A program made the translations under genes and the position numbers. A DNA stretch of 64,000 nt from Candidatus Omnitrophota bacterium (GTDB lineage Bacteria; Ratteibacteria; UBA8468; B48-G9; JAFGKM01): positions 233,685 through 297,684 of the forward strand of contig JAMWDI010000001.1 of the NCBI GenBank assembly GCA_023819375.1, read 5' to 3'. Under the pieces are notes generated by a model. The model saw nothing but the letters and a program-made list of their open reading frames with translations, was not told the origin of the DNA and ran no database searches. Positions 54,225 through 59,982 of this stretch are shown in pieces. The stretch's first letter is position 1, and every line of letters starts with the position of its first letter.

Positions 54225-55511
54225 TTAGAAAGCAATTTTAGCATATGTAAGAACTTGCCATGGCTTTGAAGGCGTTACTTCTCCAAAGTAATTCCCACCA
54301 AATATCTTACCACCTTTAACTCCAAATGTCAAATCTTCTGTATATTTGTATTCAAATCCAAGGTCAACTTCATATCCAAATTCATTATCTCCAATTAACT
54401 GATCAATCCAGTAAGCATCAAGAGTAATACCAAGTTTCTCTGTAGGATTAAGCCCAAATCCAAGATTGATCACCTGTAAATTTCCCATGTTGGCATAAAG
54501 TCCATCGGAAGAATATGCATCAAACGCATAGAAAAGTGGTCCTATTCTTGAACCAACATTTGATGGAAATACTGAGATCCAATTTTCATACGCATCTGTA
54601 TCTTCATCGTCTCCTGAAAATCTATTATAGTTAAGTTTTATAACTGGATTCATATTTGCTGGAATTTCATACTTAATCCCAGCAAGCAAAGCCCATCCTT
54701 TGAATGAATAACCATTCTCATCCTTTCCAAATTGTTTTGCCCATTCTGCTTTAAGAGAAAGTCCAGGAACTCCAGGTATTCCAGAAACAATCCTTATCCC
54801 ACCTGTATGAAGAATACCAAGATCGCCAAAGAGATCATTAATTATTATTATGTCATCAACTCCTGCATAGTAAACATCAACATTTACAACATCTGCAAGT
54901 TTAAATCCAATATCCATTCCATAAAGATTTGATTCATAATCTGTTCCATAATATGTTTCAAGTATTTTGCTGTAAATTAAAGTTAAAGAAACTGGCTCTA
55001 TTGTATAATCCAATCTTACAGCATCAAATGCTTTCTGAAGACCAAGATCACTGAAAGCCCAGAAACCATATGAAGGATAAGATGGATTTGCTACATATCT
55101 ACTTCCAATAACAAGTCCTTCTCCAAACTCAATTTCCTGTCTTCCAACTGTTAATGTAAGCCCTGGTGTCAATAAGTCCTTTACTTTAATATATCCAAGA
55201 TCAAGTTGAATATCACCTCTACCTATCCAATCTGGATAATACATATCATCATCTTCAAAATATTTACTTCCCCAAACTCTTTCATTTATAAATCTGACCA
55301 TTGTTGAAACATTCTCACTTAAATCAGCAGAAACATAAACTCTTGCTATCGTAGCAACTCCATGAAGATTCTCTGTACCTTCAAAATCTCCTCTTAATAC
55401 ACCATAAACAGCAATATCTCCACCAACCTTCACATTTTCAACAGCGGAAAATGCAGGTGCTATTAAACACACCGCAAAAACCGCTATTAAAATCTTTAAC
55501 AAACTCTTCAT
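54225..55511 (-). CDS. Major outer-membrane porin-like beta-barrel protein
   Basis: 428 aa. Signal peptide 1-22 (LLKILIAVFAVCLIAPAFS, then AVENV). The mature protein is a chain of amphipathic beta-strands with GDIAVYGVLRGDFEG, LDLGYIKVKD, LTVGRQEIEFGEGLVIGSRYV and a C-terminal VLTYAKIAF ending in Phe, the barrel-assembly signal. It shares the GRQ-x4-GEG motif with the porin at 48.3 kb. Codon choice, tandem promoters, AAGGAGG and a terminator all point to high expression. The cargo is unknown. Confidence 0.85.
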   Translation of the reverse strand: MKSLLKILIAVFAVCLIAPAFSAVENVKVGGDIAVYGVLRGDFEGTENLHGVATIARVYVSADLSENVSTMVRFINERVWGSKYFEDDDMYYPDWIGRGDIQLDLGYIKVKDLLTPGLTLTVGRQEIEFGEGLVIGSRYVANPSYPSYGFWAFSDLGLQKAFDAVRLDYTIEPVSLTLIYSKILETYYGTDYESNLYGMDIGFKLADVVNVDVYYAGVDDIIIINDLFGDLGILHTGGIRIVSGIPGVPGLSLKAEWAKQFGKDENGYSFKGWALLAGIKYEIPANMNPVIKLNYNRFSGDDEDTDAYENWISVFPSNVGSRIGPLFYAFDAYSSDGLYANMGNLQVINLGFGLNPTEKLGITLDAYWIDQLIGDNEFGYEVDLGFEYKYTEDLTFGVKGGKIFGGNYFGEVTPSKPWQVLTYAKIAF

Positions 55512-55545
55512 TTTTTAACCCTCCTTTTTGTTATCTATAAACTAT

Positions 55546-55560
55546 CCTCTTCCTCAGAGG
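55546..55560 (-). other. Small hairpin in the porin leader
   Basis: CCTCT and AGAGG (5 bp) around a 5-nt loop, 17-30 bp upstream of the AAGGAGG. It could modulate access to the ribosome site. Weak by itself. Confidence 0.4.
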
Positions 55561-55576
55561 GCTACTTCTTTCTTTT

Positions 55577-55675
55577 AGTTTATGCTTTTCTTACTCCTCT
55601 GACTTTCTGCCTATTTATCCGTTTCTTCACCTCCTTTCCCGGCATTTTTGAAAGTCAGAAAGAAAAGCATAAACT
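55577..55675 (-). other. Long structured leader hairpin showing a perfect Shine-Dalgarno in its loop
   Basis: Three nested inverted repeats lie in the untranslated leader of the porin: a 16-bp outer stem (55577-55592 with 55660-55675), a 9-bp middle stem (55599-55607 with 55650-55658), and a 4-bp inner stem (55608-55611 with 55641-55644). The apical loop carries AAAGGAGGTGA (55637-55627 on the minus strand), a perfect anti-16S match with no start codon at a usable distance. With transcription from the near promoter, the outer stem lies at the extreme 5' end of the mRNA. Confidence 0.7.
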
Positions 55676-55690
55676 TTTTTTATATTATTT

Positions 55691-55719
55691 ATTTTACCTA
55701 CAAGTTTTCAATCTGTCAA
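55691..55719 (-). promoter_or_regulatory. Porin promoter P1 (near copy)
   Basis: Minus strand TTGACA (55719-55714), 17 bp, TAAAAT (55696-55691). The predicted start near 55684 would place the leader hairpin at the 5' end. Confidence 0.75.
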
Positions 55720-55736
55720 GTTTTTTTATGTTATTT

Positions 55737-55765
55737 ATTTTACCTACTAATTTTCAATCTGTCAA
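55737..55765 (-). promoter_or_regulatory. Porin promoter P2 (far copy)
   Basis: Minus strand TTGACA (55765-55760), 17 bp, TAAAAT (55742-55737). Its spacer differs from P1 by two bases. Confidence 0.75.
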
Positions 55766-55789: not shown

Positions 55790-55818
55790 ATCTTATCATA
55801 TTAAATTAAATTTGTCAA
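55790..55818 (-). promoter_or_regulatory. Possible third porin promoter P3
   Basis: Minus strand TTGACA (55818-55813), 17 bp, TAAGAT (55795-55790). It sits at the end of aroD, 53 bp above P2, and is weaker at -10. Confidence 0.4.
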
Positions 55819-57513: not shown

Positions 57514-58870
57514 AAATTTCCTCCTTCTGAAAACTTTCTGAAACTAATTTATCAACAAATCCGACATAATATCTGCCAGATAAAAAAATTGGATTTGAAA
57601 ATATTTTTTTGTAAAATGGTATAGTTGTTTTAATACCATCAATAACAATCTCATCAAGTGCTCTTTTCATTCTTTCAATTGCCTCCAATCTTGTCCTTCC
57701 AAAAGTTATAAGTTTCATAATCAAACTATCATAATAAGGGGAAACAAAATAACCCTCATAAATATGTGTATCTATTCTAATACCAGGACCTGATGGCAAT
57801 ATAAGTTTTTTTATTCTTCCAGGAGATGGTAAAAAATTATTTTCAGGATCTTCTGCATTTATTCTGCATTCAATTGAATGATAATTTATTTTTATATCTC
57901 CCTGAGTAAAATCAAGTTTTTCATTATTTGCAATCCTTATCTGACTTTTTACCAGATCAATTCCAGTGACACATTCAGTAACTGGATGTTCAACTTGAAT
58001 TCTTGTATTCATTTCAATAAAATAAGGTCTTTTATTTTGATCAACAAGAAACTCAATTGTTCCTGCATTTCTATATTTAATAGTCTTAACAAGTTTTTTA
58101 GCATATCTTTGTAACCTTTTTCTCAAACACTTATCAACGAAAGGAGATGGACTTTCTTCAATAAGTTTCTGGTGCCTTCTCTGTATTGAACAATCTCTTT
58201 CTGGAAAGACATAAACGTTTCCTTTATTATCACATAAAACTTGAATTTCTATATGTCTTGGTCTTTCAATAAATTTTTCTATATATAAAGAACCTTCTCC
58301 AAAAGCAATTTTTGCTTCTTCTTGGCAGGTATACCACATTTTTTCAAATTCTTCCTTTGTATAAACTTTTCTCATCCCCCTTCCACCGCCACCACTTACT
58401 GCTTTTATCATAATTGGAAACCCTATCTTCTTTGCATGATATAGCGCCATTTTAAAATTATTTTCTTCATATCCTGGAATTACTGGAACACCTGCTTTTT
58501 TTGCAATTTTTTTTGCAAGAGATTTGTCCCCCATCTGTCTTATATTATCAGGAGTTGGTCCTATAAAAATTATTCCCACTGAATTGCATATTTCAACAAA
58601 CTGAACATTTTCAGATAGAAAACCATAACCAGGATGAACAGCATCTGCTCCTGTAATTTCTATTGCACTGACAATTGAGGGAATATTTAAATAACTATCT
58701 TTTGGATTTGAAGGTCCAATACAAACTCTTTCATCAGCAAGAAAAACAGGAAGAGAAAATTTATCTCCTTCTGAATAACCAATAACAACTGGAATATTCA
58801 ATTCTTTACATGCTCTTATTATCCTTAAAGCAATCTCTCCCCTATTCGCCACAAAAACTTTCCTTATCAT
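57506..58870 (-). CDS. accC: Biotin carboxylase subunit of acetyl-CoA carboxylase
   Basis: 454 aa from ATG 58870. Motifs are RKVFVANRGEIALRIIRACKEL (3-24), HPGYGFLSEN, IMIKAVSGGGGRGMRKV (ATP-grasp glycine loop), ERDCSIQRRHQKLIEE, EFLVDQNKRPYFIEMNTRIQVEHPVTE and INAEDPENNFLPSPG. It carboxylates AccB-biotin. A longer frame to 58900 begins inside the palindromic repeat and is rejected. The RAYT gene ends inside its first 29 nt, so an insertion lies between accB and accC. Confidence 0.94.
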   Translation of the reverse strand: MIRKVFVANRGEIALRIIRACKELNIPVVIGYSEGDKFSLPVFLADERVCIGPSNPKDSYLNIPSIVSAIEITGADAVHPGYGFLSENVQFVEICNSVGIIFIGPTPDNIRQMGDKSLAKKIAKKAGVPVIPGYEENNFKMALYHAKKIGFPIMIKAVSGGGGRGMRKVYTKEEFEKMWYTCQEEAKIAFGEGSLYIEKFIERPRHIEIQVLCDNKGNVYVFPERDCSIQRRHQKLIEESPSPFVDKCLRKRLQRYAKKLVKTIKYRNAGTIEFLVDQNKRPYFIEMNTRIQVEHPVTECVTGIDLVKSQIRIANNEKLDFTQGDIKINYHSIECRINAEDPENNFLPSPGRIKKLILPSGPGIRIDTHIYEGYFVSPYYDSLIMKLITFGRTRLEAIERMKRALDEIVIDGIKTTIPFYKKIFSNPIFLSGRYYVGFVDKLVSESFQKEEIYG

Positions 58871-58888
58871 TCCGAGGACCGTCCTCCG
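58870..58888. repeat. REP-like palindrome A, downstream end of RAYT
   Basis: TTCCGAGGACCGTCCTCCG. The core GAGGAC-C-GTCCTC (58874-58886) is a perfect 13-bp palindrome. It is identical to copy C and lies at the accC start codon. Confidence 0.85.
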
Positions 58889-59346
58889 CTTTCCAATCAA
58901 TTACAAATTTTAAGTAAGGTTCCCCAATCTCAATTTCCAAACGTTTAAATATCTCTTCTTCGCTTAAAATATTGTAAGGATTGATTTTTTTAGTATAAAA
59001 GATAAAACTTGACCACTTATAATTCTCTAAAAACTCAACAATTTTTCTCCAATCTTTTATTCCTTTTTCCTTCCAATCAGGGCATATAAGGTCAAGACAA
59101 TTAAGATGTATATATCTTGTCAAATGGCAAAAATAAGAGTCTGTCTCAACAATTTTTGATTTGTATCTACTCTCAAACAAAACACCTTCTCTTTCATATT
59201 TTTTATTAAAATACATGGCATAACCTGTCATCACTTTCCTCATAAATTTTATAATACCATCCTTTTTGACTTGAGTTAAAAGTAAATGAAAATGATTGGG
59301 TAAAAGTTCAAAACATAATATTTCAACAAGTTTATCTCTTTCTTCC

Positions 59347-59359
59347 AAGGACCGTCCTC
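59347..59359. repeat. REP-like palindrome B, inside the RAYT gene
   Basis: AAGGACCGTCCTC, 12 of 13 matches to the core. On the coding strand it is read in frame as GGRSLEE in an internal insert of the transposase. Confidence 0.8.
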
Positions 59360-59505
59360 CTCCAATTTTTTTATATTCTTTAGGTTTATCATCATTAAAA
59401 TAATAAAGGTATTCCATAAATCTTTCATAATCACTTTCTTCAATAAATATACCCCTTCTATCAACACCTCTATTAAAAATATGATAAAGACAACCTTCCA
59501 CAAAC

Positions 59506-59982
59506 TCAACTTTCCTTTTCATTTTCCGAGGACCGTCCTCCGATTTGGAGGATAAAGAGGACCTGCCCATATTCAACTGGTTTGCCATTTTCAACAAGTA
59601 TTTCCTTTACAATTCCATCATATTCGGATTTTATTTCATTCATAACTTTCATGGCCTCTATTATACAAAGCGGATCTCCCTTCTTAACAATACTTCCAGT
59701 TTCAACAAAAGGAGGACTTGTAGGTGAAGGTGCTCTATAAAAAGTACCAACAAGAGGTGATTTAACATATACAATGTTTTCAAGTTCCTGAGTTGAACGT
59801 TTTGCTTCCTCTACAATTTTTTCAATATTAATAGGAGGACTTTCTTCAACAACTTTTCTTTCTTTTATTTCCTCGCCTTTCTTGCTTAAAATTAAATGGA
59901 AATCTCCTTTTTTTATTTCAAGATATTCTAAACCATACTCTTTCATAAAATCTGCATAAATCTTCAATTCATCAGGTTTCAT
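59506..59982 (-). CDS. accB: Biotin carboxyl carrier protein of acetyl-CoA carboxylase
   Basis: 158 aa. An N-terminal dimer helix ([20 protein letters not shown]) and a flexible linker are followed by the biotinyl domain: [37 protein letters not shown] (biotin on the Lys of EAMKVM) and [14 protein letters not shown] normal BCCP ends about here. The last 13 residues [13 protein letters not shown] are read from the RAYT-end palindrome, so the insertion has replaced the original stop. Confidence 0.93.
59524..59542. repeat. REP-like palindrome C, upstream end of RAYT and end of accB
   Basis: TTCCGAGGACCGTCCTCCG, identical to copy A over 19 bp (core 59528-59540). It lies inside the last codons of accB, read as GGRSSE. 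Confidence 0.85.

Follow-up and report, generated by a model that had tools for sequence, protein, structure and literature searches.

A covarying leader hairpin that presents a start-less Shine-Dalgarno sequence upstream of porin genes

The porin locus and its leader

The stretch of DNA that we analyzed (the window, 64,000 nt) carries a porin gene on its minus strand at 54225..55511, encoding a protein of 428 aa with a match to the Pfam family Alginate_exp (PF13372, E 1.4e-12). All elements of its leader lie on the same strand and are described below in window coordinates. Two tandem 46-nt promoter repeats, 91% identical to each other (55672-55763), precede the leader hairpin. The proximal promoter, P1 (TTGACA-17-TAAAAT, 55691..55719), has a predicted start at ~55684, and the distal promoter, P2 (55737..55765), is its tandem duplicate. 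A third promoter-like site was seen at 55790-55818. All transcription starts given here, for the window and for related genomes alike, are promoter predictions.

Downstream of P1, the leader folds into three nested stems, each identified by computed folding together with covariation. The outer stem joins 55660..55675 to 55577..55592 over 16 bp, the middle stem joins 55650..55659 to 55598..55607 over 10 bp, and the inner stem of 4 bp is formed by TGCC (55641..55644) and GGCA (55608..55611). An A-rich internal loop (55645-55649) precedes the 5′ arm of the inner stem, and an unpaired purine-rich bulge, GGAGT (55593-55597), follows the 3′ arm of the middle stem. A sequence-only reading had earlier proposed this nested arrangement; computed folding bore out its outer and inner stems and also recovered the middle stem, although at 10 bp rather than the 9 bp claimed. 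Across positions 55509-55690, the minimum free energy was -49.9 kcal/mol, compared with -24.4 ± 3.1 kcal/mol for 200 dinucleotide shuffles (z = -8.3), none of which folded as well. The same reading had placed the hairpin at the very 5′ end of the P1 transcript, and this agrees with our layout, in which the outer stem begins at about nucleotide 10 of the predicted mRNA.

The part of the leader from the main hairpin to the porin ATG contains a second small hairpin (55546..55560), the single-stranded box TATAGATAAC (55530..55539), and, by direct reading of the sequence, the true porin Shine-Dalgarno (SD) sequence, GGAGGG (55519..55524).

A Shine-Dalgarno sequence without a start codon

The apical loop of the hairpin holds a second SD sequence, AAAGGAGGTGA (55627..55637), whose GGAGG lies 123 nt upstream of the porin ATG. 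Complementarity to the 16S rRNA had been noted from the loop itself, and comparison with the 16S gene of the same genome showed it to be exact over 11 nt of the 3′ end (...GGATCACCTCCTTTCT). No translatable start follows this loop SD, as had also been claimed: within the 4-13 nt scanned downstream there was no ATG, GTG, or TTG, and the sole start-like codon was an ATA at spacing 11.

Statements about the genome as a whole are based on pattern and model searches, which found the porin hairpin as a single copy. Of the 35 exact AAAGGAGGTGA sites in the same genome, one lies antisense to the 16S 3′ end, and in nearly all of the others a start codon follows after 5-9 nt. Just two are start-less exceptions, namely a site next to an IS remnant (L008) and the porin leader, and only in the latter is the sequence enclosed by a strong hairpin, with 30 pairs around it (-38 kcal/mol). 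Elsewhere in this genome (G000), type IV pilin-like genes (GFTLIELLVV) that rely on a perfect AAAGGAGGTGA as their ribosome site are numerous and spread over many contigs.

Conservation across the phylum and in a second porin family

For comparison, porin homologues were drawn from metagenome assemblies at four levels of relatedness (shared genus, family, order, or class), and their leaders were folded singly. Homologous leaders were present in every family of the phylum sampled and share a common plan. In this plan, a long stem is followed by a short internal loop rich in A and by a short G+C inner stem (mostly GCC/GGC), which carries the loop AAGGAGGTGA with its A-rich 3′ half. Further downstream come, in order, another small hairpin, the ATAGATAA box, the true SD, and the porin ATG. 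In families f1-f3, the hairpin was found in 18/18 Alginate_exp-type porin leaders readable to the ATG, and it was also found in L049, whose gene is truncated by a contig end. Family f4 (L027, L034) keeps this plan and has an additional hairpin or insert ahead of the inner stem, and in family f5 (L029, L030) the start-less SD is kept ~205 nt upstream with a different and less certain fold. Run over 35 genomes of the phylum, a covariance model built from five leaders of one genus (R1) recovered leaders belonging to other orders and families at E-values as low as 1e-10, and nearly all of its matches stood before porins. Six weak model matches (L061, L062, L068, L114, L115, and L119) were set aside as chance stems or ordinary SDs.

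Compensatory changes in homologous leaders, on which the proposed fold had been staked beforehand, proved abundant. In an alignment of 21 leaders, 26 of the 30 pairs had changed on both sides, with 144 double-change cells. This included 15/16 pairs of the outer stem and 9/10 pairs of the middle stem, where 95% of cells were paired. The covariation score, uncorrected for phylogeny, was 0.616, compared with 0.213 ± 0.016 in shuffles (0/500 as high) and at most 0.183 when the pairing partners were slid. Because the 21-row alignment had been fitted to the structure, we also used an alignment-free test in which stem arms were swapped. Own arms paired at -27.3 kcal/mol and arms from other genera at -16.2 ± 4.8 kcal/mol, and only 19 of 492 swaps were equally good. 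We take the hairpin to have been kept by selection throughout the phylum.

The loop has behaved differently from the stems. Over 29 leaders, 312/319 loop positions matched the 16S complement, 5 of the 7 deviations replaced A by G and so kept a G-U pairing, and the loop core GGnGGTGA was invariant (alignment A1). The loop SD is also largely exposed, with a mean unpaired probability of 0.80. That stem sequences turn over completely while the loop stays fixed points to a loop conserved for pairing with 16S rRNA. The lack of a start codon recurs as well. None of the 29 leaders carries an ATG in the 4-13 nt range downstream of the loop SD, and the three with a GTG or TTG there (L015, L022, and L025; spacing 4-6) open frames that are unrelated or due to chance. 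In L022, a GTG 6 nt past the loop SD begins a frame that runs continuously into the porin (497 codons), which is probably chance because its sister L025 has a stop.

The place of the hairpin within the predicted mRNA is similarly consistent. Judged from predicted promoters with 10-12 of 12 consensus bases, it begins 0-18 nt from the transcription start in 17 of 19 Alginate_exp-type leaders and 28 and 66 nt from it in the remaining two; a second predicted promoter often lies upstream. The distance from the loop SD to the ATG ranges from 57 to 203 nt (median 114). Within this interval of the Alginate_exp-type leaders, the second small hairpin is conserved in position and variable in sequence, and the box ATAGATAA is invariant in all those read from f1-f4, at 19-27 nt before the ATG.

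We found no sign that this element had been described. No riboswitch family had been recognized by the earlier reading, and Rfam likewise gave no credible match: nothing in the window reached the gathering threshold, and relaxed thresholds gave only weak chance matches in the leader. A literature search combining this lineage with structured RNA, riboswitch, and porin returned nothing relevant. A search of ~85,000 genomes for the exact core pattern found the hairpin in this lineage only, the eight other matches outside the lineage being sequences that do not fold into it. As an RNA family, the leader hairpin appears to be new, and in mechanism it would be a structured form of a known kind of leader, one with a start-less SD.

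The hairpin is also found in front of a second porin family. A broader covariance model (R2) detected it before Porin_5 genes in G010, G012, and G015 (g6), G008 (g4), and G019 (g8), as well as before a gene for a secreted protein without a Pfam match in G020 (g9). The second hairpin is absent from Porin_5 leaders, and in some of them the main hairpin adjoins the true SD, with neither second hairpin nor box between. By contrast, the hairpin was absent from the readable Porin_5 leaders of genus g1, this genome included, and of G009, so it is not indispensable for a Porin_5 gene. In three g1 genomes, the Porin_5 leader instead carries an upstream SD, perfect or nearly so, together with an ATG and a mini-ORF. 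The hairpin thus stands before Porin_5 in some genera and is missing in others, and it behaves like a unit belonging to porin leaders in general, not to a single gene.

Two further features of the Porin_5 loci were noted. The hairpin-less Porin_5 gene of this genome (G000:C2, ~94.9-96.2 kb, minus strand; L129, L002) has a perfect upstream SD and an ATG whose mini-ORF consists of four codons, MRVK, and then a stop, ~70 nt before the true start. Mini-ORFs like it occur in G002 and G003; the upstream ATG of G004 shares the reading frame of the porin gene. Separately, TTAACA-like repeats resembling Pho boxes lie upstream of the hairpin in five Porin_5-type leaders (L052, L065, L113, L116, and L117), and a PhoR-like histidine kinase is encoded directly upstream of the hairpin-bearing Porin_5 locus in G010 and G015. 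The loci with Pho-box-like repeats, two of them beside a PhoR-like kinase, suggest a phosphate-starvation porin.

A candidate 30S docking site and its alternatives

We propose that the hairpin is a 5′-terminal, structure-presented docking site for the 30S subunit that stabilizes and/or primes the porin mRNA, a reading to which we assign a probability of roughly 0.55. A stable 5′ hairpin would open the mRNA and display the extended, perfect SD in its apical loop, where a 30S subunit, or a 30S en route to initiation, could dock through its 16S 3′ end. Because no start codon follows the loop SD, the docked 30S would be unable to initiate. Together with the 5′-terminal stem, it may instead protect the 5′ terminus of a strongly expressed mRNA against 5′-end-dependent decay (RNase E/G), and it may hold a ribosome close to the actual initiation site, 50-200 nt further on. 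The binding of 30S, the protection from decay, and a net positive effect on expression are what we infer here. The box ATAGATAA and the second hairpin are outside what docking explains.

HMM searches of this 94% complete genome, on which our calls of absence are based, detected RNase E/G (PF10150, E 2e-84) and did not find RNase J (TIGR00649), CsrA (PF02599), or Hfq. The sequence-only reading had imagined two uses for the hairpin, and the first of them, a 5′ stabilizer with 30S docking or standby, fits best because of the predicted 5′ end, the invariant 16S-complementary loop, the presence of RNase E/G, and the recurrence in a second porin family. Since RNase E/G is encoded and a strong SD is able to stabilize mRNA without a start codon in E. 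coli and Bacillus, a docking hairpin is the most economical reading.

Precedents for such stabilization come from several systems. In the STAB-SD of Bacillus thuringiensis cry3A (Agaisse and Lereclus 1996), a start-less SD stabilizes the mRNA by a block to the 5′-3′ exonuclease RNase J1 (PMC4113751). Like the porin leader, it has a perfect start-less SD near the mRNA 5′ end (predicted in our case) that is complementary to the 16S 3′ end and precedes the start of a very strongly expressed gene by slightly more than 100 nt. However, STAB-SD is described as a bare SD-like sequence, whereas the porin leader is a long, covarying hairpin conserved across a phylum. STAB-SD also acts against RNase J1, and RNase J was not found in the HMM searches of the porin-leader genome, so protection would need RNase E/G or another pathway; the porin leader may therefore work like a STAB-SD and is not classed as one.

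The mRNAs of ompA and other genes remain stable without a start codon if a strong SD is kept (PMC7509114). The Escherichia coli ompA 5′ UTR resembles the porin leader in its 5′-terminal hairpin (again, predicted in our case) on the mRNA of an abundant outer-membrane protein in an RNase E/G host, but it has no sequence relation to the porin hairpin. By analogy, the porin leader may work like an ompA-type stabilizer, and we do not class it as one. The ompA hairpin is not known to display an SD in its loop. In Bacillus subtilis, the title of Hambraeus et al. (2002; cited in PMC3997798 and PMC7509114) attributes stabilization of the aprE mRNA to a stem-loop at the 5′ end together with ribosome binding, and not to translation. 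The likeness to the porin leader lies in this combination. The aprE leader is not known as a phylum-wide RNA family.

Start-less SD stabilizers are known from a few single genes, and what we describe here is a conserved, strongly covarying RNA family of an uncultured lineage, located upstream of genes from two porin families. This family shows that an SD can be maintained by selection throughout a phylum for a purpose besides initiation. It also offers a natural variant series for separating 30S docking without initiation, standby, and mRNA protection. A bolder version of the docking reading is that these hairpins form a phylum-wide class that docks 30S without initiating, couples porin synthesis to ribosome supply, and can be moved before at least two unrelated porin families, which we consider quite unlikely in that full form.

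The nearest rival to docking is a standby site proper, in which the loop SD would capture 30S only for hand-over to the porin start, translation would rise, and stability would be a side effect. The spacing of the loop SD ahead of the ATG suits this account, as do the Porin_5 leaders in which the hairpin sits directly beside the true SD. Yet the need for a standby site is not obvious when the true SD is for the most part unpaired already (mean 0.70), and a perfect SD of 11 nt would grip the 30S tightly. Standby in the tisB mRNA, whose ribosome site is sequestered, needs a single-stranded region (PMC7708055), whereas the SD of the porin leader is in a hairpin loop. We therefore regard pure standby as unlikely, if worth keeping in view; it may also be part of the same mechanism as docking.

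A regulatory switch, in which a protein (a ribosomal protein or an envelope regulator) or a small RNA with a CCUCC seed would act on the loop or on the ATAGATAA box, is decidedly doubtful. Conserved internal loops and a single-stranded box do resemble recognition features, and porin leaders of other bacteria are small-RNA targets. Still, the changes in the loop are wobble-compatible with the 16S match, no conserved alternative pairing was seen in the leaders, and regulation by CsrA or Hfq was rejected because HMM searches of the 94% complete genome found neither protein.

Lower again in probability is the second use imagined earlier, a decoy or sensor of free 30S, in which the loop would compete with the true SD and porin output would track ribosome availability. 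The anatomy would be identical to that of a docking site, and GCCCTCT in the window leader is able to pair with the true SD. However, this motif is limited to two near relatives (L009 and L010), other leaders cannot form the pairing, and the true SD is mostly accessible elsewhere, which leaves decoy use without specific support. A GCCCTCT switch that sequesters the true SD was likewise rejected as not conserved.

A hidden leader peptide, with the loop SD starting a short ORF, is very improbable. The few GTG and TTG codons described above, and an ATGCCG just upstream of the loop in some leaders, could be taken in its favor, but the former lead to unrelated peptides, the latter opens differing frames and is missing in several leaders, and the lack of any conserved ORF largely refutes the idea. 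Finally, a mobile-element remnant or chance palindrome, which a Y1 (IS200-like) transposase gene ~3 kb away (58842-59597) might bring to mind, is scarcely credible and is refuted by the covariation of a single-copy hairpin held in orthologous position before porins across the phylum, other DNA matches being weak and to the promoter region. The transposase, perhaps REP-associated, is encoded between accB- and accC-like genes.
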